Shown piece after piece: positions 551-13,028 of a stretch of DNA of 14,112 bases. Made by a program: the position numbers and the translations under genes. A model generated the notes under the pieces. The model searched no databases. It was not told the origin of the DNA and worked only from the letters and a program-made list of their open reading frames with translations. How positions within the stretch are numbered: the stretch's first letter is position 1; each line of letters starts with the position of its first letter. Source of the stretch: Stephanodiscus triporus (taxonomy: Eukaryota > Bacillariophyta > Thalassiosirophyceae > Thalassiosirales > Thalassiosiraceae); assembly GCA_036939755.1 (NCBI GenBank), contig JALLAZ010000555.1, forward strand, positions 1 to 14,112, read 5' to 3'.

Positions 551-3500
551 ATGACGACGACTGCCAACGCCGCGTCGTCCCCGTCCCCGACCGTCCCCGA
601 CGACGGGTCGTCGTCGTCGTCGTCGATCGAGGGCGGCGGAGGCCGCCGGCGCCCTCCCGCCGCCGCCGACGTCGACGAGATCGTGGCGAGGCACTTTCGC
701 ATCGTCGCGTCGATCGTGCGCGACCCCCCCGGTAACGACGACGAGGACGATTACGACGATCGCGACGCCGCGGCGGTCGTTCCCGACTCGGTCAGGCTTC
801 GCCTGTACGGGTACTACAGGTGCGCCACCGCCGACGACGCCTCTCGCGACGATCGTCTTCGTGCTCGTCGTCGTCCTACTCGTCCGTCGATGTTCTTCGA
901 TCCGGTGGGACGGGCCAAATACGACGCGGTCGAGTCTTGTCTGAGGGAGCTGAAATCGTCGATGATGATGTCGTCGTCGTCGTCCTTGTCGCCGCCCTCC
1001 TCCTCCCACGGCCCCGACGACGACGACTACGATTACGATGGAAGAGGGAGCGGCGACGACGGATTATCATCGTCAAACGACTACGACGACGAAAACGAAA
1101 ACGAAAACGACGACGATGGGGTGAGGATACTCGCCATGAGGCGATACGTCGACCTCGCCGCGAGCGTATGTCCGAACACCCGCGCGGGGAGGGAATGTTC
1201 GAGGATGCGCGACGCGATGAACGCGGAGATCGAGTCGCTGAACACGCCGTTGCCGTCGTCGTCGTCGTCGTCGTCACGACGAGGACGAGGATCGTTATTA
1301 TCACGACGAAGACGCGAGGAGGAGGGCGGGGATAAAGACGACGACGACGGGAAGGGGGAGGACGGGAAGGGGGGGGAGGTGGACGACGCAGTTGCCGCGT
1401 CAGGGGGAGGGGGGGGGGGAGGGAACGGACGACGTCCTCCCCCCCCCTCCGGGGTCGACCGCCGCACGACGACGACCACGACCGAGACGGCCGTCGCGGC
1501 CGTCGCCGTGTCCCCCCCGTCGTGCCGTGCCGCGCCCCGCCATCGTCGTCGTCATCACCACCTCCTCCTCCTCCCGCGCGGGCGGCTGGACGCGTCGTAT
1601 CCCGATCTGCTCCGCGCCCTGTTCGAGTCTATCATCGTCGGCCTTTTCCGATCGGCGTCCGCGGCGGCGGCGCGATCGCGGTGCTCGTTCCTCCTGCCGC
1701 GATCGTTGTCGTCGTTCGTGCCAATGCCGTCGTCGTCGTCGTCGTCGTCGTTTTGGCTTCTTACGAGCCTGCTACTCCGTCATCCGCGCGCGGTCGAATC
1801 GGACCTCGAGCGCGAAATCGAGAGTTTGTGGCTCGACGCGATGGTGGCTCGACGACAACGACGGCTAGACGATAACGACGACGACGATCGCGCGTCGCGG
1901 AATACGTCGTCATCGTCGACGTACGTCGTCGTCGGCCTGTCGGTCAGGACCCTACTCGACCTGTACCTCTCGGCGAACGACGGCATATTGTTCGATCCGT
2001 CGTCGTCGTCGGGGGGAGGGGAGGAGGAACGCAAGTCCGAGGTCGTGATCGTTCCCCCCGTGTCCATACCCGGCATGATCGGCGTCCTTCGACGACGAGG
2101 CCTGACGCCGATCCCCGTCGACCTCCTCCCGCCGCATCCCGACGACGACGACGACGACGACGTCCCGCGGTGGGGGATCGACGTCGACGGCGTGATCGGC
2201 GCGATCACGTCCCGGACCGTCGCGATACTCGTCGTCCATCCCTTCGGGGCCGTGGTGGCGTCGGACGCGGTCATGGCGCGTCTGCGCGATGTCGCGAACG
2301 GACGGGGGATCGAAATATGGGAGGATTGCGCCCAGTGCTACACCGGGTCCGTCCCCGCCGAAGTTGCGGGGAGGGGAACGCGGCGACGAAGTGATCGCGA
2401 TTATCGTCGATCTGGGTACTCCGGCAGTCGACACGCGAACGTATCCTTCTTCTCCTTCGGTCCGATCAAGACCGCCACCGCCCTCGGGGGGGGACTGGCG
2501 ATCCTGCGCGAGATGGTAAACGACGACAACGGCGATGATGATGACGACGAGGATGTACCGCGCGACCCGCCGTCGTCCCCCCCCCGCCGTCGTAGCGTCG
2601 GCATCGTTAAACGCCTGCGAGCGGAGGAGACGGCGCGAGCCATGAGGCGCATACAGGACACTACGTACCCGACGCAGTCCGACGCTTCGTACCTCGGACG
2701 CGTCCTCAGGTGCCTCGTCGTCCGCGCGGTATCGGGCTCGCGCGCGCTCGCCGGCCTATCCCATCGAGCGTTGACGGACGTATTCGGCCGGGATTATGAC
2801 GAGTTCGTCGGATCCTTGCTCCGGGGCTTCCCCCCCCCCCCTCCCGCGTCGTCGACGACGACGTCCGACGACGAGCCCTCTCCCCGTGGCGCCGAGGTAC
2901 GACAATTGAGGAGGAGGCCATGCGCGGCGATGCTGTCGATGCTGCGTCGACGTCTCCTCGATTCCGACGGCACGTACGCGAGCGCGACGCGTCGTAAAGA
3001 AGGGTGTCGATCGTTCGCGAGGGAGCTGCTCGATGATGGGAGGATGAAATCCCGCGGCATCGCGCCGCTTCGGCACGTAGACGACGACGACGCAGGGGGG
3101 GGAGGGGACGTAGGCATGTACGGATGGGTCTTCCCGGTATCGGTCCCCGACCCCGCGCATGCGAGTCGAATGCTGTTGGGGATGGGATTCGACGCCCCGG
3201 CCGGCGGCGTGACCCAACTGAGGCCCATCGACGACATCGAGGGGGCCGGCGGCGTCGGGAGGAGAAGATGCCCCCGCGCAAGCGACGCATTCGATCGCAT
3301 TTTGTACCTCCCCGTGACGGGCGAATGTTTCTCGTCGAGGGATCGCGCCGCGTTGATCGACGCGCTTGCGGCCGCGGTAACATCGTCCAAGGGTGGCGAA
3401 GATGAAGATGACGGAGTCGGACGACCCCAATGCCGACTCGAATGCACGCCCACGAAGGAGGATGGCCGAAGGCAGCATTCGCCACGAAGGAGGATGGACA

Positions 3501-6500
3501 CGGTGGCTTTCTTATCCGTCATCGTTGCTTTGATCGATTCGCATTTCTCTATTCTCGGCCTGTGGCGGATAATCCCAATCCGTGTCGCGCTCCGACTAGC
3601 GATCGCCATAACTCCCTGGATTAGTACCGTGCTAGTCTGCACAGCGCTATCGCTGCTCGCGCTGAGTCAATACATGGGCCCGATTTATTTGAAATCTTCG
3701 AACACATTTGCCAAGTACTGTGATATGCTATTTCGGTCACCATTTCATCGCCATCGTGGTGCGTCGTCATCGCACGGTACCGACTTATTAAATCACGATG
3801 ACAACGACAGCATTTTATTCATGCAATCGAAGACAGTTTTGGATTTGGAATCGACAAGGGTGCCGTCCATCAGTGTTTCGGTTGAGGATGCAGATAATGA
3901 CGGTGATTCTAATGATGAAGAAAAGCGACAAAAAGCAATGGTACTCCTCACAGGCGCGACAGGATTCATCGGCTCTCTTCTGCTACGCGAACTTCTATTA
4001 CATCGACGTTCGCTCGCGATACTCGGAGGTGTCATTGTGATTGTGAGGCCGAAACGAGGCAAATCGGCCCGGGAGAGAGTTGATCGCCTTTTATCCCAGC
4101 CGATGTACGATTTCTTAAGTGCAGCCGAAATGAAGTCTCTCGTGCATGTCATCGAGGGCGATGTCACTCTTCCGGATTGTGGGATGCGAAGGGAAGACAT
4201 CGAATCGTTGTGTCGAAAGGACATCTCGCACGTCTTTCACTGCGCGGCGGCAGTCAGCTTCTCCCAATCCCTCGATGATGCGGCCGTGTCGAATATCACC
4301 TCGTCGTTGCAACTGCACGTCCTGACAAAGAGACTGAGGAGGGGGAGGAATGACGATGTAAAATTTGTGTATATCAGCACTGCATTCGTACACGGCGGGA
4401 AAACAGGCTCGCCGTCCGAGCCTCTGCCCGAAGAGGTGTTTTCATTGCGCCGATACGATCCCGTGGGACTTTACAAATCGATGCTGGGGTCGCAATCGTA
4501 CGCATCTGCCGCCATGAAAGATCTGGGTCATCCGAATACCTATACCTTCAGCAAATGTATATGCGAGCACTTATTACTCCGAGCAAGCAGCGGCAGCGAG
4601 GGCGGCGGCGTCAAAACGATCATCATCCGACCTAGCATCGTGGGACCTTCCGTTCAAGAACCCTCCGAGGGATGGGCGGGGGAAAAACCATCGACGATCG
4701 TGGCTGCGGCATGCCTGTACCTCAAATTTCCCTACAACATTTGGTGTTTCGGAAAAAATTTAGTTCCCTTCGTACCCGTGGATGTCGTCTGTCGGTTTGT
4801 TATAGCAAAATCGTTTGGAGATCAGAGCCGCATGCCGAACGGCGAACCCAATGAGGGCAGCTCCTCGGTAATATATGCAGAGGACGAGAAAAAAGAAATA
4901 TCTCCATCAGACAGCCGAGAGGAGAGCCGTTGCCCACATTATACCATTGCTACAGTCGCATGGGATGCGTCTTCACCATCCAGCGCGTCATTTTCATGGA
5001 TGTCATATGCCTTTTCGATCACACATCTCGGCGCAGTTTGTGGTCATGTCAATCGTGTCATCGCATACGCCGGTTTGCTAATATCAACAAAATTGTTCCC
5101 TCGATTCAATTTTAGTCTTGATACGTTTCGGCGCCTTCACTCCATGTTTGTCCGGGCATCCCTAGATGCTGTATTGGATATAAGCAACCATCTCCCATTG
5201 AAGACGATTTTTTTTCGCGATTTGAAGGCTCTGAGTCACATCATAGATTTGCCTATTCTATTCTACCCCTTTGCGAACCAGAGCTTTTACTTCAAGAGCG
5301 ATCTTATAGCTCCGTTGGACTTTAACGGCGAGCGGTACATGTTCAGCTGTGCAGTCGCTGCTCATCAGTTCATTCTAACGATTGAAAATCAGAGGAGGGT
5401 TCGCCCTATTCAACTCCATCTCTCGAATTTGCGGCAATATAGTGTTGGTACGCCTGGCACACAACAAAGTCATTCCACCAGTTCAATCGTTGTTGCTGGT
5501 GCAAATCATGTGAAGCCTGTATCGGATTTGTGGTGGGCTCTCACGCAGCCGAAGGGAAATTTCACGATTCGCCTTGGGGGTTGGATCCTATCGAAGATTT
5601 TTCGTTACACCTCAATGGAAATTGAAGTCGATATCGATTCTTTCCGGATTCTCTCCAGAAAACTGGCAAGATCACAAAAATCAGCGACGCCTCACGTCAT
5701 CATTGCACCTACGCATCGCTCATTCTATGACTTCCTCATCGTCAGTTATGTTTGCTTTTCCGTGCCAGAGTTGGGTCTTGACTTACCCCACATAGCGGCC
5801 GCGTCAGATTTCGAGAGTATACCCATTCTTGGATGGCTGGCAAGGAGATCCCTTGCTTTCTTCTTAAAACGCGATGGAACAAAGAGTGACAATGACCTGA
5901 AACAAAATCTGGCCATGATAATAGAGGCCGGACAGAGCCCTGCCTTCATCGAGGTTTTTATTGAAGGGAAGCGCAGCAGGATTCGGACATTTGCCAAGCC
6001 CAAGACTGGTTTTTTACGTTGTCTATCAAGAATCGCAGGCGATTGCATTATTTTCCCATTAACAATCAACTACGAAGGTATACCCGATGAAGAAAGTTTA
6101 ATCAAAGAGGCTAATTATGGTCGTACCGAGAAGATGAGTCTGGCTAATCTCACAAAATGGATGTACCGTGTATTGGCCGGAAAAGTTAACATTGGACGTG
6201 TGTATGTATCGGCATCGGAGGCTTTGGCTATGAATGACTCATGTGGTGAACCCATAAATGAATTGGCCCATGCAATTCAATTGCGCCAGCAGTGTCAAGT
6301 CATGGTTTCGAATTATCACATAAAAGCCGCTTCATTGGCGCTGGATTTATCGGAGGAAATTGTATTCGAGGCCATTTTGGAGCTGGGGTGTCAACTTTGG
6401 CCAGAATCAGAGAACCAAACTTACATCCAACTGCCGGACAATCAGGATTTTCTGTGGGCCGCCATGCTACAATTTTCCCACCTTCTTGGGCCGTATCTTA

Positions 6501-8650
6501 GTACTTCTCATCCTCTGTGGTCATCATGGATCTGCCCGTCTCCAAAAAAGTTAAATTCCAAAGTCGCAACTGGCAATGCACTGAATAAACTCCTTTCGAA
6601 GCTGACTCATGTCTTTGATCTCGCAGAGAACGAAGTAGATTTGGTATTCCAATCTCTTCAAGCAAAAGGATTTGATGCACCAGAGGAAAAGCACGTCCTT
6701 CAATACCTTCCCATTGATTCCGATGTTCCCATGTTTTTAATGCATGTGGTCCTTAGAGACAAGTTTGCCAAAGCCAACGTTCTCTCGCATTATTCTCATC
6801 GGCATAATGTGCAAAAGGTCGCACCAATATTCCCGTTGGGAGACAGTCCTGACGCAGAAGCCTTCGGGGCATGGGGCTATCAAGACTCGTGTTTCGTTTT
6901 GAACGTCAAGCCTGATGGATCAAAGACTGTCACAATGAAAGGATCAAGATATGGCATAAGTGGAAAACCCTTGGCTCGGCTGGCCAGTTTCGTTGAGGAA
7001 GAACTCAATGTTGTTATCGATCCCACCGGCCTCACCTTTCCAACATGTCATGATTTGAGAAACACCCCAGAGAGTAGTCTTGGTATTGAAAGCGTGAAGC
7101 AACTTGTCGCCTTGCTTGGGGGTGACGGAAAAAGGATATCACTAAGACTAGCCGACCGCGCGCGTCGTGGAACTGGTCATTCCCAAGAAGACATGTATTG
7201 TTTGCGAACAGGCCTGACTGGGTTTCGTGTGCCAGATGCAGTTGTTTGGCCCCAGAGTGAAGGAGAAATCCAGGCTCTAGTGTTGAGTGCCGCCCAAAAT
7301 AGTTGGTGTCTCATTCCTTTTGGAGGAGGTACCAATGTGACGCACGCTACTCACTGCCCAACCATGGAACTCGACCCAAGGCCAATGATATCAGTTGATA
7401 TGAAGTCAATGTGCCGTGTTCTCTGGGTAAACGAAGAAGATGGCCTTGCGCATGTTCAAGCTGGCATAACAGGGATTGACTTAATTCGAAATATAGAGAA
7501 GCTTGGCTTCACTATTGGTCACGAACCTGATAGTTATGAATTTAGTACACTCGGTGGATGGATTGCAACTAAAGCAAGTGGAATGAAGCAGAACAGATAC
7601 GGAAACATTGAGGACATAGTTAGAGAAGTTAGGGTTGTCGGGGCGAAAGGTTTAATGTCGTACGACCACAAAACTGGAAAGTCGTCAGTTGGAAGATCGT
7701 CAATAGGCGTAGATCTTAAGTCGCTTATGCTTGGGTCGGAGGGGTGCTTTGGAATCATTGTCAGTGCTGTTATAAAGATATGGCCTATTGCAGAATCAAG
7801 ATCGCATGAGAGTGTAATTCTGCCTAACTTTGAAGTCGGCATGAGATTTATGAAAGATGTCTCGAAATTGCGTGCAATGAAACCTGCAAGTGTGAGACTT
7901 CTTGACAATGAACAATTTCGACTTGGGCAGGCACTTAAGGAAGAGGGTCCAAAGTATGCATCTCTGTGCAGCCACGTCGCTCAGAAAATTGCATACTACC
8001 TTGGAAATTTTTCAGAAAAGTCTGTCGTGTGTGCCACAATCGCATTCGAAGGCACTTCCTTTGAAGTGAATATGCAAAAGAAGTTTGTTCATGAATTAGC
8101 GTCTACGCATGGTGGCATTCTTGCAGGATCGAAAGTTGGCAAGGCAGGCTATGCTCTCACCTTCGCCATTGCATATCTGCGTGACTTTGCTCTGAACTAC
8201 AACATCTTAGGTGAAAGCTTTGAAACTTTTGTCCCGTGGTCTAAGTTGACTCAAGTTTGCTCGCGAACAAAGCATAGAATTTTCCTCGAGCACAAGACTC
8301 GTGCGTTGCCTGGAGTGCCCTTCGTGTGTTGCAGGATCACTCAGCTTTATGATGATGGTGCATGCGTCTACTTTTACTTCTGCATGAACATAAGCGGTGT
8401 TTCAGAACCAAGTAGGGTATTCTCAGATATTGAAAAGGCTGCTCGCCAAGAAATTCTGACCAACGGAGGAACGCACAGTCACCACCATGGCCTGGGTAAG
8501 CGAACAACCTTGATGGCTGAAATATATTCATCTGGTTATGCGAATGCGCTTGTTTCTATGAAGGAGGCAATCGACCCAATGAACACGTTTGGCGCAAGGA
8601 ATGGAGTGTTTTCAATGATGCATTCACAAACAACCATGCCTGCTTTGTAA
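551..8650 (+). CDS. Multidomain ether-lipid synthase: ACBP / DegT-type aminotransferase / fatty acyl-CoA reductase / DHAP acyltransferase / alkyl-DHAP synthase
   Basis: A single 2,699-residue frame with no stop and no intron needed. Domain order: ACBP-like (about 55-205), PLP aminotransferase (about 340-965), two hydrophobic segments (984-1043), NAD(P)-binding fatty acyl-CoA reductase with its C-terminal part (about 1125-1660), HxxxxD acyltransferase (about 1700-2000), and alkyl-DHAP synthase with FAD domain (about 2100-2690). The signature residues of each domain are intact (see the domain entries), so every module looks potentially active. Known chemistry of these families: FAR reduces acyl-CoA to fatty alcohol, DHAPAT makes acyl-DHAP, and AGPS swaps acyl for alkoxy to give alkyl-DHAP. 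The start is the first ATG after an in-frame TAA at 545. The 5' third is GC-rich and rich in Asp and Ser tracts; the rest has ordinary composition. The protein ends in ...TMPAL, which is not a canonical PTS1. The main alternative is two adjacent genes or a spurious N-terminal part, but no stop separates them. The single ORF is certain; the single polypeptide is likely. Confidence 0.87.
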   Translation: MTTTANAASSPSPTVPDDGSSSSSSIEGGGGRRRPPAAADVDEIVARHFRIVASIVRDPPGNDDEDDYDDRDAAAVVPDSVRLRLYGYYRCATADDASRDDRLRARRRPTRPSMFFDPVGRAKYDAVESCLRELKSSMMMSSSSSLSPPSSSHGPDDDDYDYDGRGSGDDGLSSSNDYDDENENENDDDGVRILAMRRYVDLAASVCPNTRAGRECSRMRDAMNAEIESLNTPLPSSSSSSSRRGRGSLLSRRRREEEGGDKDDDDGKGEDGKGGEVDDAVAASGGGGGGGNGRRPPPPSGVDRRTTTTTTETAVAAVAVSPPSCRAAPRHRRRHHHLLLLPRGRLDASYPDLLRALFESIIVGLFRSASAAAARSRCSFLLPRSLSSFVPMPSSSSSSSFWLLTSLLLRHPRAVESDLEREIESLWLDAMVARRQRRLDDNDDDDRASRNTSSSSTYVVVGLSVRTLLDLYLSANDGILFDPSSSSGGGEEERKSEVVIVPPVSIPGMIGVLRRRGLTPIPVDLLPPHPDDDDDDDVPRWGIDVDGVIGAITSRTVAILVVHPFGAVVASDAVMARLRDVANGRGIEIWEDCAQCYTGSVPAEVAGRGTRRRSDRDYRRSGYSGSRHANVSFFSFGPIKTATALGGGLAILREMVNDDNGDDDDDEDVPRDPPSSPPRRRSVGIVKRLRAEETARAMRRIQDTTYPTQSDASYLGRVLRCLVVRAVSGSRALAGLSHRALTDVFGRDYDEFVGSLLRGFPPPPPASSTTTSDDEPSPRGAEVRQLRRRPCAAMLSMLRRRLLDSDGTYASATRRKEGCRSFARELLDDGRMKSRGIAPLRHVDDDDAGGGGDVGMYGWVFPVSVPDPAHASRMLLGMGFDAPAGGVTQLRPIDDIEGAGGVGRRRCPRASDAFDRILYLPVTGECFSSRDRAALIDALAAAVTSSKGGEDEDDGVGRPQCRLECTPTKEDGRRQHSPRRRMDTVAFLSVIVALIDSHFSILGLWRIIPIRVALRLAIAITPWISTVLVCTALSLLALSQYMGPIYLKSSNTFAKYCDMLFRSPFHRHRGASSSHGTDLLNHDDNDSILFMQSKTVLDLESTRVPSISVSVEDADNDGDSNDEEKRQKAMVLLTGATGFIGSLLLRELLLHRRSLAILGGVIVIVRPKRGKSARERVDRLLSQPMYDFLSAAEMKSLVHVIEGDVTLPDCGMRREDIESLCRKDISHVFHCAAAVSFSQSLDDAAVSNITSSLQLHVLTKRLRRGRNDDVKFVYISTAFVHGGKTGSPSEPLPEEVFSLRRYDPVGLYKSMLGSQSYASAAMKDLGHPNTYTFSKCICEHLLLRASSGSEGGGVKTIIIRPSIVGPSVQEPSEGWAGEKPSTIVAAACLYLKFPYNIWCFGKNLVPFVPVDVVCRFVIAKSFGDQSRMPNGEPNEGSSSVIYAEDEKKEISPSDSREESRCPHYTIATVAWDASSPSSASFSWMSYAFSITHLGAVCGHVNRVIAYAGLLISTKLFPRFNFSLDTFRRLHSMFVRASLDAVLDISNHLPLKTIFFRDLKALSHIIDLPILFYPFANQSFYFKSDLIAPLDFNGERYMFSCAVAAHQFILTIENQRRVRPIQLHLSNLRQYSVGTPGTQQSHSTSSIVVAGANHVKPVSDLWWALTQPKGNFTIRLGGWILSKIFRYTSMEIEVDIDSFRILSRKLARSQKSATPHVIIAPTHRSFYDFLIVSYVCFSVPELGLDLPHIAAASDFESIPILGWLARRSLAFFLKRDGTKSDNDLKQNLAMIIEAGQSPAFIEVFIEGKRSRIRTFAKPKTGFLRCLSRIAGDCIIFPLTINYEGIPDEESLIKEANYGRTEKMSLANLTKWMYRVLAGKVNIGRVYVSASEALAMNDSCGEPINELAHAIQLRQQCQVMVSNYHIKAASLALDLSEEIVFEAILELGCQLWPESENQTYIQLPDNQDFLWAAMLQFSHLLGPYLSTSHPLWSSWICPSPKKLNSKVATGNALNKLLSKLTHVFDLAENEVDLVFQSLQAKGFDAPEEKHVLQYLPIDSDVPMFLMHVVLRDKFAKANVLSHYSHRHNVQKVAPIFPLGDSPDAEAFGAWGYQDSCFVLNVKPDGSKTVTMKGSRYGISGKPLARLASFVEEELNVVIDPTGLTFPTCHDLRNTPESSLGIESVKQLVALLGGDGKRISLRLADRARRGTGHSQEDMYCLRTGLTGFRVPDAVVWPQSEGEIQALVLSAAQNSWCLIPFGGGTNVTHATHCPTMELDPRPMISVDMKSMCRVLWVNEEDGLAHVQAGITGIDLIRNIEKLGFTIGHEPDSYEFSTLGGWIATKASGMKQNRYGNIEDIVREVRVVGAKGLMSYDHKTGKSSVGRSSIGVDLKSLMLGSEGCFGIIVSAVIKIWPIAESRSHESVILPNFEVGMRFMKDVSKLRAMKPASVRLLDNEQFRLGQALKEEGPKYASLCSHVAQKIAYYLGNFSEKSVVCATIAFEGTSFEVNMQKKFVHELASTHGGILAGSKVGKAGYALTFAIAYLRDFALNYNILGESFETFVPWSKLTQVCSRTKHRIFLEHKTRALPGVPFVCCRITQLYDDGACVYFYFCMNISGVSEPSRVFSDIEKAARQEILTNGGTHSHHHGLGKRTTLMAEIYSSGYANALVSMKEAIDPMNTFGARNGVFSMMHSQTTMPAL
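608..2161 (+). repeat. In-frame trinucleotide (TCG/GTC/GAC) microsatellites
   Basis: Pure triplet runs include (TCG)6 at 608-625, (GTC)7 at 1255-1275, (GTC)7 at 1729-1749 and (GAC)7 at 2141-2161, with many shorter and interrupted ones up to about 3,440. On the coding frame they give Ser or Asp tracts. The repeats stay open in several frames and on both strands, which explains the many long overlapping ORFs in this part. Confidence 0.85.
713..1165 (+). other. Domain: acyl-CoA-binding protein (ACBP) fold, split by a low-complexity insertion
   Basis: Residues about 55-205 of the fusion protein. Seen: LYGYYRCAT at 85-93, RPSMFFDPVGRAKYDA at 111-126 and MRRYVDLAA at 196-204. These follow the ACBP pattern of LYxxYKQAT, RPGMxDxxGKAKWDA and AMxxYIxxV. 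The four residues that contact CoA or the acyl chain in classical ACBP (Tyr28, Lys32, Lys54, Tyr73) map to Tyr86, Arg90, Lys123 and Tyr199, so only a conservative Lys-to-Arg change occurs. An insertion of roughly 50 Ser/Asp/Glu/Asn-rich residues (about 139-190) lies between helix 3 and helix 4. Inferred role: capturing acyl-CoA for the reductase and acyltransferase modules downstream. Confidence 0.72.
1568..3445 (+). other. Domain: DegT/DnrJ/EryC1/StrS-type PLP aminotransferase
   Basis: Residues about 340-965. Seen in fold-type-I order: YVVVGLSVRTLL (458-469) in the place of the usual SGTxAL phosphate-binding stretch, VIVPPVSIPG (from about 499), HPFG (563-566), EDCAQCYTG (591-599), which supplies the PLP-contacting Asp592 and Gln595, then SFFSFGPIKTATALGGG with Lys640 at the Schiff-base position. 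The C-terminal half keeps the YGWVFPV and ILYLPV strands typical of the family. The family normally transaminates keto-sugar nucleotides with glutamate or glutamine. Odd points: Val465-Arg466 replace the usual Gly-Thr pair, and long Asp/Ser insertions loosen the domain. The substrate cannot be read from the sequence. Confidence 0.8.
3450..3497 (+). repeat. 16-bp direct repeat at the composition boundary
   Basis: CCACGAAGGAGGATGG occurs at 3450-3465 and again at 3482-3497, 32 bases apart. It lies exactly where the GC-rich, triplet-rich part of the large gene gives way to ordinary composition, just before the hydrophobic segments. The spacing is not a multiple of three, so the two copies are read in different frames. 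Confidence 0.75.
3500..3679 (+). other. Two adjacent hydrophobic segments, probable membrane hairpin
   Basis: Residues about 984-1043, directly after the aminotransferase domain. One segment covers about 984-1004 and the second about 1012-1038, with a short Trp/Arg/Pro stretch (WRIIPIR) between them. A hairpin would leave the ACBP-aminotransferase half and the reductase-acyltransferase-synthase half on the same side of a membrane. The topology is inferred by eye from composition. Confidence 0.6.
3932..5530 (+). other. Domain: fatty acyl-CoA reductase (FAR, NAD-binding-4 plus C-terminal part)
   Basis: Residues about 1128-1660. Seen: the dinucleotide-binding loop VLLTGATGFIGSLLLREL (from 1131, with TGATGFIG at 1134-1141), VFHCAAAVSF in the middle, YISTAFVHG (1274-1282), the catalytic YxxxK as Tyr1331 and Lys1335 (YTFSK), and IIIRPSIVGPS (1357-1367). 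This is the order of animal, plant and protist FARs, which use NADPH to make fatty alcohols from acyl-CoA through a bound aldehyde. The C-terminal part (about 1490-1660) has moderately hydrophobic helices and weaker resemblance to the FAR C-terminal domain, so its limits are approximate. Confidence 0.9.
5648..6520 (+). other. Domain: DHAP/glycerol-3-phosphate acyltransferase (GNPAT/PlsB-like)
   Basis: Residues about 1700-1990. The catalytic HxxxxD is His1722 to Asp1727 within APTHRSFYDFL. The second block is LKRDGTKSD and the substrate-binding third block is FIEGKRSR at 1803-1810, followed by KPKTGFL. The combination of HRSFxDF with FIEGxRSR is the form found in the GNPAT/PlsB group rather than in LPAAT enzymes. 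Between the FAR and AGPS modules the natural reading is dihydroxyacetone-phosphate acyltransferase, giving 1-acyl-DHAP. That choice over glycerol-3-phosphate rests on the domain context. Confidence 0.87.
6848..8620 (+). other. Domain: alkylglycerone-phosphate (alkyl-DHAP) synthase, FAD-dependent
   Basis: Residues about 2100-2690. Seen: the AWGYQDS entry motif (2107-2113), FRVPDAVVWPQSEGEI, the FAD loop PFGGGTNVT (2256-2264), EFSTLGGWIATKASGM (from 2330), YGNIEDIV, GSEGCFGII, SVRLLDNEQF with Arg2449 at the position equivalent to the disease-associated arginine of human AGPS, TQLYDDGACVYFYF with Tyr2600 at the catalytic-tyrosine position, and the histidine motif SHHHGLGK (2643-2650). This diagnostic set separates alkyl-DHAP synthase from D-lactate dehydrogenase-type flavoproteins. 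It replaces the acyl group of acyl-DHAP with a fatty alcohol. The N-terminal PTS2 of animal AGPS has no counterpart here because the domain is internal. Confidence 0.93.
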
Positions 8651-9740: not shown

Positions 9741-10350
9741 TCATGCCCTGAAAATGTTGGTGTGACCATTGTTGATTGTTGTGAAGGATGTGGCCATTTG
9801 CAGGTGTATGAATATACATTGAAGTGACAGTCAAACATTATGCTACATTTCATACCCTTGCAAAATATTCAGACGCTGAATTTTTTAGTGCCATTTACCA
9901 CAGACTCCTCTCCCTGCCGTGTCACCTCAATAAGAACAAAAAGAGACACTAGAGTATTCTAGAGTACAAAAGTACAATTTCCTTTCTCAACATGTGATAA
10001 GCTTCTCGGACACAGAGATTACTACAAGGAAAGACAAAAAGGGGGGATTCGCTCCCACCCCTACTCCCAGCCCCCCCAACCGCCCCTCCTTGGTGTGTTG
10101 ACCGTGACTGCCTCATGACGGGACATGACGATGGCCCCAAAACCACTGGCAGGCCCAGCCGCATTTGACTCCTCACCCACTGTGGGTCGTGATGACACGC
10201 TATGGGGTCAGACGCGACGGCGTGTTCTTTTTTGGGGCTGTCATCGGCCCAGTGCCGCCGCTGCCACCATCATCGTTGTGTCAACACCCTCATCACGGTG
10301 GCTGGTAGGCTCCTCTGCATTAGACAGATAGATTTTTTCAAGGCAGAATT
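9741..10350. other. Intergenic region, no gene seen
   Basis: Short open frames on both strands lack coding character and have no domain I recognise. A C-rich patch lies at about 10054-10090. A 9-bp inverted pair (GCCCCAAAA at 10134-10142 and TTTTGGGGC at 10230-10238) flanks a GC-rich stretch. Confidence 0.5.
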
Positions 10351-10625
10351 CCATTTTCTCCCGAACAACATCAACATGAGTTTTGTATGTCGTTGTCTGC
10401 CATTTCTCCTCTGTTGCTTTGTTGCAAAGCAACACTTATCTCCAGTAATTAAATACTAAATAATATTTTATTGATTGGGCCTTATAATCCATTTTCTCCC
10501 GAGCAACATCACCATGAGTTTTGTATGTCGTTGTCTGCCATTTCTCCTCTGTGTTTTTTTGCGAAGCAACACTTATCTCCAGTAATTAAATATCTAAATA
10601 ATATTTTATTGATTGGGCCATATAA
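10351..10625. repeat. 138-bp tandem duplication (two units)
   Basis: Unit 1 spans 10351-10488 and unit 2 about 10489-10625. They are nearly identical, starting CCATTTTCTCCCGA and ending in TTTTATTGATTGGGCC. Unit 1 holds a 9-bp hairpin (GTTGCTTTG, loop TTG, CAAAGCAAC, 10413-10433) that is broken in unit 2. The open frames through the array are not convincing genes. Confidence 0.9.
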
Positions 10626-11216
10626 AATATTCACACCCCTCGGGCCCCAATACAGCACCATGACAACCTAAAAGACACCCATCACACCCCTCCACTGGGC
10701 AAATAATCTGTGAATGATGTTAACGTCGTATGGCTTAACTGGTATGTGCTTACTACTTAAGCTTATGTGCTTTTGAATAGGTTCAAATATAAGCCTGTCT
10801 TTAAACATGGCGGTAGTTTCACGACACAATCACAATCATCATCATGTCGGCGTTGTCTCATCATCATCACCATTGATGAAATTATGTTTCTAACTCCCTC
10901 CTCGCAGTGCATGTGTACTAAGACCAAACAATTCTAACAACAAAAAATAAAAAATGGATCTCGGCTTGGCAGAGAATGGATCTCGGCTGGTGACAGAGAG
11001 TTTTTGGCGAGCAATCGCCAAACCATAATCCACGTGGCCCCCAACAAATTTGGAGGGGATGGAGAGCTATCTACTTATCTACTATCGTACTCTGCACCAT
11101 ATCTCGGTTGCATGTTGCATTGTTTCATTTTTTTATGGCATTGCATATGTTGCGGCATACGCGACGCGTCGACTACTAACCACTCGAGCGGAGGACCCAC
11201 TAATTATATCATCATC
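10626..11216. other. Upstream region of the PDI/ERGIC gene, with a small direct repeat
   Basis: No gene seen. A repeat of AATGGATCTCGGCT occurs at 10953-10966 and 10975-10988 (22-bp period). Upstream of the chosen start the frame stays open and contains another ATG at 11112; starting there would add 35 residues with a hydrophobic beginning. The promoter and 5' UTR of the gene at 11217 should lie here. Confidence 0.5.
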
Positions 11217-13028
11217 ATGAGCAACAATAACATTTACGGCGGAGGCGGAAAGAGGGGGGCCGTGTCCTCGATGGATTTTTACAGGCGCGTGCCGAAGGAC
11301 TTGACTGAGGTGAGCGAGAGGAAGGGAGGGAGGAGGGAACGACGAAACGACAAACGACGAAACAACAAAATCGCAGAAGAAACATTGCGAATGTATTTTG
11401 GTTTGGACTGCGATTTTTTTGCGGAGATCTCATCTTCTCCATCGCCCTCTAACTTTTTATCTTCTCTCATGACCGTGCCTAAAAAAACAGGCAACTTCCC
11501 TTGGCGCATTCATGTCCCTCTGCGCCATCGCCGTCATGGGCGTGCTCTTCCTTTCGGAGACAATCGCCTTCGCGCGAACGGCGATAGAAACGTCCATAGC
11601 GCTCGACGAGAACGACCAACCGCAGATACGGCTCAATTTCAACATCACGCTCATGGACCTGCACTGCGATTACGTCTCCGTGGACGTATGGGACACCCTC
11701 GGCACGAACCGCCAGAACGTGACGAAGAACGTCGAGAAGTGGCAGCTCGACGAGTCCGGCCAGAGACGGATCTTCTCGGGGAGGAATCGTGAGCAGCGGC
11801 AGGTCGTACACGAGGAGCACGAGGAGAGTCTCGAGGAGTTGCACGAGGACGGCGAGCAGGCGGTGGAGCTCACGAACGACAATTTTCAGGATTTCCTGAA
11901 AAACTTCGATATGGCCTTCATCGACATGTATGCTCCGTGAGTTATCATATAGTCTTTTGCATTCCTTGTTGTCCGGCTTTGAATGCGATGTGGCCAATCA
12001 CGAGGACGGGCCTAATATCATTTCTCACTTTCTCTCCCACCCATGCCATTTTTTGCTTTCCCTGGCCTTGCCTTAGATGGTGCATCTGGTGCCAACGGCT
12101 GCACCCCACGTGGGAAAAATTCGCGGAGGAGGTTCACAAGTTGCACATGCCCATCGGCGTGGGCAAGGTGAACTGCGTCATCGAGGCACAATTGTGCAAA
12201 GATCTTAGGATCATGGCCTTCCCGACGCTGCGTTGGTACAAGAGCGGCGAGGCCATCCTCCCCGATTACAGCATGGACCGCACGGTGGACGCGTTGACGG
12301 GGTACGCCAAACGCAAGCTCGAGATGGAACAGAAGTACAAGGATTGGGAGTCGAAATCCGCCGAGGGGGGCGACGTGCCGAGGCCTAATGCCGGGGCCTC
12401 TCGTCCGGCGCACCCCGGCTGTCAGGTGTCGGGACACTTGATGGTGAATCGCGTTCCCGGGAATTTCCACATCGAGGCCAAATCGGTGAATCACAACCTC
12501 AACGCCGCCATGACCAACCTCACCCATCGAGTGAATCACCTTTCGTTCGGCGAGCCCATAACAAAACTCCTACCCCACATGGAGAATACGCCGTTCATGA
12601 GGAAGGTCAAACGCGTGCTGAAGCAGGTTCCCGACGAGCACAAGCAGTTCAACCCCATGGACGATAAGGTGTATGCCACGTCCAAATTCCACCAGGCCTT
12701 TCACCACTACATTAAGGTCGTGTCCACCCATCTCAACATGGGATCCAGCGCCCAGTCGGAAAATGACGTCAACTCCCTCGTAGTTTACCAGATGCTCGAG
12801 CAGTCGCAGGTTGTGTATTATGATGACGTCAATGTTCCCGAGGCGCGATTCTCGTACGACATGAGCCCGATGAGCGTTGTTGTCCAGAAGGAGGGCAGGA
12901 AGTGGTACGATTATATGACCAGTTTATGCGCTATCATAGGTGGGACATTCACGACACTCGGCTTGATCGATGCGACGTTGTACAAAGTATTCAANTTGTA
13001 CAAAGTATTCAAGCCGAAGAAGTTGTAA
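11217..13028 (+). CDS. ER membrane PDI/ERGIC hybrid (PDI-C, PDIL5-4-like), three exons
   Basis: Exons 11217-11309, 11491-11936 and 12077-13028 join in frame to 496 residues as assembled. Seen: DFYRRVPKDLTE (20-31) of the ERGIC N-terminal domain, an N-terminal membrane anchor at about 34-58, luminal sequence with N-glycosylation sequons (NIT, NVT), a thioredoxin domain with YAPWCIWCQRL (CIWC at 182-185) created by the second splice join, the cis-proline strand MAFPTLRWY, then the ERV/ERGIC domain starting at GCQVSGHLMVNRVPGNFH (294-311), and a second membrane segment at about 460-485. The tail ends KPKKL, which fits a KxKxx COPI retrieval signal. Plants and many protists have this ERV-thioredoxin-ERV form, thought to act in disulfide chemistry and cargo handling between ER and Golgi. 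I chose the start at 11217 because the family begins just before the DFYR motif; an in-frame ATG at 11112 is the alternative. The 3' end contains an N (12995) within a short duplication that adds six residues, probably artificially. Confidence 0.9.
11310..11490 (+). other. Intron 1 of the PDI/ERGIC gene
   Basis: GTGAGC at the 5' end and AAAACAG at the 3' end, 181 bases, phase 0. Removing it joins DLTE directly to ATSLGAFMSL, the layout expected for the ERGIC N-terminal domain (DLTE followed at once by a membrane anchor). The pyrimidine tract is weak. Confidence 0.87.
11937..12076 (+). other. Intron 2 of the PDI/ERGIC gene
   Basis: GTGAGT donor, pyrimidine-rich 3' part and TTAG acceptor, 140 bases. 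It splits the proline codon just before the active site, so that only the spliced message encodes APWCIWC. CCTAAT within the intron could serve as the branch region. Confidence 0.93.
12978..13012 (+). repeat. 17-base duplication flanking a single N (probable assembly joint)
   Basis: TTGTACAAAGTATTCAA occurs at 12978-12994 and again at 12996-13012 with an N between. Collapsing the two would remove 18 bases and keep the frame, leaving one LYKVF before KPKKL. Two contig ends joined without merging their overlap would produce exactly this pattern. Confidence 0.8.

Follow-up and report, generated by a model that had tools for sequence, protein, structure and literature searches.

The window analysed here, 14,112 nucleotides from the diatom Stephanodiscus triporus, is contig C550 (JALLAZ010000555.1) of a 21.65 Mb assembly. 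Its forward strand carries, between positions 551 and 8650, a single reading frame of 2,699 codons that is free of stops throughout and closely preceded by an in-frame stop at 545; in 200 simulated windows of matching first-order composition, no run without a stop exceeded 279 codons. The 2,699-residue product comprises, in order, an acyl-CoA-binding (ACBP) domain, a DegT/DnrJ/EryC1-type aminotransferase dependent on pyridoxal phosphate (PLP), a fatty acyl-CoA reductase (FAR), a PlsB-type acyltransferase (AT) predicted to act on dihydroxyacetone phosphate (DHAP), and an alkyl-DHAP synthase (ADPS). These are the modules, and the order, of the original prediction, as are the three motifs that it had read as catalytic, YTFSK, HRSFYD and SHHHGLGK. 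The domain search that it had proposed returned NAD_binding_4, Acyltransferase, FAD_binding_4, FAD-oxidase_C and DegT from Pfam, with family profiles in agreement, whilst ACBP scored 20.3 bits against a Pfam cut-off of 28.3 and was recognised only by a profile of relatives. That the five modules form one protein is near certain; this protein is predicted to make alkyl-DHAP and, judging from the family and position of the aminotransferase, there is an even chance that it then transaminates the C2 ketone to give 1-O-alkyl-2-amino-2-deoxyglycerol-3-phosphate.

The FAR domain has the GxxGxxG and YxxxK motifs and is directly followed by an acyltransferase with an HX4D motif. The last module aligned nearly end to end with the solved peroxisomal alkyl-DHAP synthases (7e-131 with AGPS/ADPS of PDB 4bby, residues 2105-2684), with FAD_binding_4 and FAD-oxidase_C spanning its whole length and the catalytic tyrosine and HHH common to both. 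ADPS is a stand-alone enzyme in animals and Dictyostelium (PDB chains 4bby and 2uuu), whereas in the diatom it forms the C-terminal fifth of the fusion. A hydrophobic stretch lies no more than 160 residues before FAR in 84 of the 85 relatives that exceed 1,700 amino acids and have a recognisable FAR motif. No end resembling a type 1 peroxisomal targeting signal (PTS1) was found at the C-terminus, which reads PAL, and among relatives longer than 1,700 amino acids, some of whose records end early, the sole match to a loose PTS1 pattern is P0014 (ANI). Residues 1100-2699 matched the diatom's own genome at this locus only, and a search with PF03015 (FAR_C) gave no match in that genome, nor in any control genome, and is thus uninformative.

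Table 1. Features of the five-module reading frame (positions in the window; residues of the translated frame).
Feature	Position	Strand	Remarks
Five-module protein, open reading frame	551..8650	+	2,699 codons
ACBP domain, residues 45-140	683..970	+	Pfam 6e-4 (below cut-off); family profile 2e-10
DegT/DnrJ/EryC1-type aminotransferase, residues 340-942	1568..3376	+	Pfam DegT 4e-12 and family profile
EDCAQ motif, residues 591-595, including D592	2321..2335	+	D592 invariant in 67-sequence alignment A3
SFGPIK motif with K640	2453..2470	+	K640 invariant in 67-sequence alignment A3
Hydrophobic, membrane-spanning-like stretch, residues 985-1045	3503..3685	+	Between aminotransferase and FAR
FAR (NAD_binding_4), residues 1128-1424	3932..4822	+	Pfam 8e-44
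TGATGFIG motif in FAR	3950-3973	+	
YTFSK motif in FAR, residue 1331	4541-4555	+	
PlsB-type acyltransferase, predicted DHAP acyltransferase, residues 1691-1996	5621..6538	+	Pfam Acyltransferase 7e-16
HRSFYD motif in AT, residue 1722	5714-5731	+	
Alkyl-DHAP synthase, residues 2106-2688	6866..8614	+	Pfam FAD_binding_4 6e-32, FAD-oxidase_C 1e-24
GACVYFYF motif in ADPS	8357-8380	+	Tyrosine is the residue that is Phe in 4bca
SHHHGLGK motif in ADPS, residue 2643	8477-8500	+	

Homologues were retrieved with residues 1100-2699 as the query, and all 120 listed, of 144 in total, were scanned with the module profiles. The order DegT-FAR-AT-ADPS was present in 90 of these, with ACBP in front in 62 and without it in 28, some of the latter holding only part of DegT and one of them (P0001) being the window's own locus. 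A further 18 records read ACBP-DegT-FAR-AT, introns being a possible cause of their ending after AT, and eight read FAR-AT-ADPS; FAR-AT-ADPS-ACBP, DegT-FAR-AT-ADPS-ACBP, ACBP-FAR-AT-ADPS and DegT-FAR-AT occurred once each. ACBP stood at the N-terminal end in 81 of the 120 but at the C-terminal end in P0077 and P0086, and is therefore likely to have been joined more than once. The sources included the diatoms Cyclostephanos, Discostella, Thalassiosira, Cyclotella, Skeletonema, Chaetoceros, Thalassionema, Nitzschia, Seminavis and Fistulifera, the bolidophyte Triparma, and the dinoflagellates Cladocopium, Symbiodinium and Prorocentrum, the last three with DegT to ADPS and no ACBP in front. An oddity confined to diatoms was thus ruled out, dinoflagellates and bolidophytes also carrying the fusion. 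The alga Pycnococcus (P0075, P0103) has the fusion without ACBP and DegT, and two Seminavis paralogues (P0077, P0079) are without DegT. A phage collection yielded partial matches only, the best covering 18% of the query (among the five records listed of nine), and 49 pattern matches in viral contigs included no relatives.

The original prediction had named a misassembly that fused adjacent genes, or transcripts beginning or ending between the modules, as the ways in which the frame could mislead. Such an artefact would fit a drop in G+C content at third codon positions (GC3) at the module border: the value is 0.76-0.78 over ACBP and the aminotransferase (551-3580) and 0.43-0.55 thereafter (3580-8650). 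It would also fit the NCBI gene model of the locus (P0001, a hypothetical protein of 1,906 amino acids with 99.8% identity over the aligned part), which begins at residue 794 and so is without ACBP and most of the aminotransferase. However, the same order recurs in 90 of the 120 listed homologues, six records being transcript-derived by their names (P0036, P0041, P0074, P0093, P0104 and P0105), and no stop interrupts the 2,699 codons, which makes either artefact very unlikely, to the point of being hardly credible. Since relatives carry the same fusion, the GC3 drop probably reflects a step in composition and not a faulty join.

The novelty of the protein centres on its aminotransferase, as the textbook ether-lipid line has no place for one. 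The module has a complete predicted DegT fold with its PLP lysine. K640 of SFGPIK, which we take from the DegT family to be the PLP-binding lysine, and D592 of EDCAQ, presumably the holder of the PLP ring nitrogen, were invariant across 67 aligned diatom, dinoflagellate and bacterial sequences (alignment A3). A pattern search recovered the lysine motif in 87 of the 120 listed homologues, the misses including records in which the domain is absent or truncated. A pseudo-aminotransferase was ruled out by the invariant lysine. Predicted fold and PLP residues are common to the diatom module and the DegT/DnrJ/EryC1/StrS enzymes ArnB, PseC and perosamine synthase; the titles of the solved enzymes mark them as acting on sugars or cyclitols, whereas members of the diatom-type subfamily in some bacteria adjoin lipid genes or are fused to them. 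The gene context suggests a lipid or glycerone ketone as substrate rather than a nucleotide sugar or cyclitol.

Bacterial and archaeal genomes were scanned for relatives of the DegT module, which returned at least 80 loci from many phyla. At one of them, L004, a Gemmatimonadetes metagenome-assembled genome (MAG), genes for ADPS, FAR-AT, DegT and a PlsC-type acyltransferase overlap or adjoin one another in that order, the stand-alone DegT lying at 4524-5732. Within the taxonomic order of L004 (288 genomes), FAR-AT was present in seven genomes (E<=1e-100), in two of them truncated by the start of a contig, and DegT in five (E<=1e-30), four being shared, a co-occurrence with a hypergeometric probability of 6e-7 when kinship is ignored; in its class, ADPS was present in eight and DegT in four of 198 genomes, with three shared. 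Directly after FAR-AT lay DegT and then PlsC in G001, G275 and G278, and a short-chain dehydrogenase/reductase (SDR) in G177, G371, G379 and G402, whilst in G133, covered by the class-level scan only, the contig ends at this slot. A second phylum, to which the Lujinxingiaceae MAG L059 belongs, yielded matches at E<=1e-80 in 34 of 377 genomes. Of these, 27 were examined, seven matches to the FAR part only being left out. The slot held SDR at 23 of these loci, DegT at none and neither gene at two (L162, where 1.5 kb remained, and L167, where 3.2 kb did), and was cut by the contig end at two. The visible slots numbered 32, comprising 27 with SDR, three with DegT and PlsC, two with neither and none with both, and the SDR or DegT domain began 75-755 bases past the AT domain. 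ADPS was visible upstream in 26 of the 32, the contig beginning or ending in or near FAR-AT in the other six. PlsC followed DegT in all three rows, as opposed to none of the 27 SDR rows, 23 of which have at least 2.3 kb beyond the AT domain; L144 does have a PlsC-like gene, located upstream of ADPS. These rows show directly the exchange of DegT for the dehydrogenase in otherwise similar bacterial gene rows. A search of the diatom's own genome for the SDR of the bacterial slot gave no match, with no positive control in that search.

The alkyl-DHAP reductase of animals is of the SDR type. ADPS, FAR and AT are exactly what the pathway to alkyl-DHAP needs. In animals, the next step is the turning of the C2 ketone into an alcohol by a reductase, and in Myxococcus the genes MXAN_1676-1675-1674 encode AGPS, a FAR-GNPAT fusion and one further gene, this third being of the SDR form (PMC9131029). 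An SDR in third place fits ketone reduction, and a transaminase in the same place would act on the same ketone. Transamination of alkyl-DHAP is, in our estimation, the most likely single role of the fused aminotransferase, though the chances for and against it are about equal. The ACBP domain would hold acyl-CoA, AT would load one acyl chain onto DHAP, FAR would reduce a second acyl-CoA to fatty alcohol, and ADPS would exchange the acyl chain for this alcohol, giving alkyl-DHAP. The PLP aminotransferase would then convert the C2 ketone to an amine, in place of alkyl-DHAP reductase, and a separate acyltransferase would N-acylate it to a ceramide-like amide, the N-acyl chain in the bacterial operons being supplied, on this proposal, by the extra PlsC-type gene. 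The aminated product is predicted to be an ether mimic of sphinganine-1-phosphate with a sphingoid-like backbone. We propose more tentatively, at somewhat below an even chance, that a lipid class not yet described occurs in diatoms, dinoflagellates and some Gemmatimonadetes, consisting of ether isosteres of sphingolipids made on an enzymatic assembly line in which a PLP transaminase replaces alkyl-DHAP reductase and N-acylation follows, and that the trait has at least two origins, one as a bacterial operon and the other as a eukaryotic fusion.

Should the aminotransferase prove to act in line, amino ether lipids would be made by two of the main phytoplankton groups of the sea, and would resemble sphingolipids to proteins and to mass spectrometers whilst arising by a route independent of serine palmitoyltransferase. 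A defined mass series, a C2 nitrogen derived from the amino donor, and loss of the product on mutating one lysine are predicted, and a bacterial aminotransferase subfamily found in many phyla would be given a function. Even without the amination step, a conserved enzyme whose single chain unites an acyl-CoA carrier, a reductase, an acyltransferase and an ether synthase provides a natural instance of possible substrate channelling in the synthesis of ether lipids.

The aminotransferase could instead be accessory or unrelated (serving, for example, dimerisation, regulation or membrane-side docking) in an ordinary ether-lipid synthase, with a separate reductase making normal alkyl-glycerol lipids, a reading that we hold to be unlikely but not negligible. 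FAR-AT and a separate ADPS are reported to suffice for ether lipids in Dictyostelium, fusions without DegT exist in Pycnococcus and Seminavis, and the DegT domain of Triparma appears partly eroded; yet neither the lysine nor the aspartate varies among the 67 aligned sequences, the lysine motif recurs in 87 listed homologues, and DegT occupies the dehydrogenase slot in three bacterial operons. A smaller probability attaches to amination of DHAP itself, giving serinol phosphate for a parallel amino-lipid or head group. RtxA and Cj1437 are reported to perform this reaction, and at L064 DegT is joined with a glycerol-3-phosphate-oxidase-like domain. The operon slot, however, comes after ADPS and FAR-AT, and since the AT and ADPS domains both require the DHAP ketone, prior amination would compete with two modules of the same chain. 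Slightly more doubtful again is the capture of the fatty aldehyde from FAR as a long-chain amine, such as reductase-aminotransferase pairs make in some peptide synthetase pathways: DegT directly precedes FAR in the chain, and in some bacteria a DegT relative is found among genes for fatty-acid synthesis, but an SDR in 27 of the 32 visible slots fits a glycerone ketone better, and the ketones on which solved DegT enzymes act are, by titles, of the sugar type.

Several observations also weigh against transamination of alkyl-DHAP by this module. Going by their titles, the solved DegT relatives with the best scores have nucleotide sugars or cyclitols as substrates, not lipids, and DegT was missing by family profile from 10 of the 120 listed homologues, some of them perhaps truncated models. 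In Triparma P0076 and P0078 the lysine is kept but the N-terminal part with the SVRS motif is seemingly gone, which we attribute to decay or gene-model error. FAR or a strong ADPS adjoined DegT at one of the at least 80 bacterial loci, within the available flanking DNA, so the subfamily, taken as a whole, is not specific to ether lipids; the other 79 listed loci had no strong FAR, AT or ADPS neighbour, the flanks being short for some. The DegT proteins of G275 and G278 are 60% and 59% identical to that of G001 and are thus close relatives, so the three DegT operons may represent one event, to which the P values, ignoring kinship, are blind. The SDR counts come from a profile built from L116 and L137, both among the counted loci, and the identity of the slot SDR as alkyl-DHAP reductase is presumptive. 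G402 has SDR in its operon and DegT elsewhere in the genome, and two rows (L162, L167) have neither gene in the slot.

In the FAR-AT tree, the 96 sequences taken as eukaryotic after filtering formed one clade apart from the bacterial set, with support of 1.0 and a long stem. The 97 eukaryotic DegT domains kept after filtering fell within a clade of 102 leaves (support 0.83), its five other members including L064, whilst DegT of L004 fell in a separate 70-leaf clade without eukaryotes (support 0.99). Because the eukaryotic FAR-AT clade is separate and the operon DegT belongs to another clade than the eukaryotic DegT, the pairing of this aminotransferase with ether-lipid enzymes likely came about separately in bacteria and in algae, a point that adds weight to the functional link between the two. 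A recent transfer of a bacterial FAR-AT-DegT operon into algae was ruled out on the same grounds.

Published work (PMC3143110, PMC9244630, PMC7375469, PMC9131029, PMC3222319 and PMC11800397) was drawn on for comparison. The FAR-AT pair is known from Dictyostelium, ciliates and bacteria, and the original prediction had named it from Dictyostelium. Fusions of FAR with DHAP acyltransferase are described in one paper from Tetrahymena, Paramecium, Dictyostelium, Polysphondylium, Phytophthora and Naegleria, and the same paper reports Thalassiosira pseudonana and Phaeodactylum tricornutum to be without it; this absence from two model diatoms may be the reason that the fusion went unstudied. FARAT/ART1 of Dictyostelium and Tetrahymena resembles the diatom protein in having FAR and then acyltransferase in one chain, and starts ether-lipid synthesis in Dictyostelium, but no ACBP, aminotransferase or ADPS is described in it. 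Dictyostelium FARAT is reported to be soluble and peroxisomal with an SKL end, whereas the diatom protein has a membrane-like segment and no PTS1-like end. RtxA and Cj1437 transaminate the ketone of DHAP, as proposed here for alkyl-DHAP; their product, however, is serinol phosphate, with no ether lipid involved, and the likeness is one of chemistry. Among the matches listed from the open-access literature, with most subscription journals outside its scope, there was no five-module enzyme, no DegT protein in ether-lipid synthesis and no 2-amino alkyl-glycerol lipid. The claim that no such enzyme had been described holds to that extent, but the arrangement belongs to a conserved family and not to this window alone.

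The immediate neighbours of the 80 listed bacterial DegT loci, in 72 of which the DegT gene was called, included no conserved neighbour overall. Of the 260 genes lying no more than two places from DegT, 11 (including the L004 ADPS) matched a FAD_binding_4-oxidase profile, as did two DegT fusions, versus none of 559 genes farther away, and a PlsC profile matched four of 260 versus none of 559, although both profiles were built partly from near genes and the comparison is thus not independent. At a few of these loci DegT has other partners of a lipid or ketone-making kind. PlsC-like genes lay near DegT at L041 (by profile) and L059, and P0223 is an acyltransferase-DegT fusion. In the Acidobacteria, DegT is fused to a FAD_binding_4 oxidase at L053 (9917-12586, by Pfam) and L072 (6497-9226, by profile), and a FAD oxidase gene adjoins DegT in the Bacteroidetes L035, L043, L046 and L055, that of L043 having a DUF805 domain and lying beside a methyltransferase-like gene. 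The L064 fusion (9962-12805, Bacteroidota; DAO and DAO_C) lies beside an AMP-ligase/carrier/acyltransferase protein and may belong to a pathway for DHAP or serinol lipids. In G099 and G105 of the Gemmatimonadetes class (L127 5282-8841, L129 7873-13914), DegT follows a PlsC-type acyltransferase and ketoacyl-synthase-like genes in a fatty-acid-like cluster. Downstream of the fusion in the diatom window, two frames at 11512-13025 carry the ERGIC_N, thioredoxin and COPIIcoated_ERV domains of a PDI-ERGIC type protein, the gene for which is likely interrupted by an intron.
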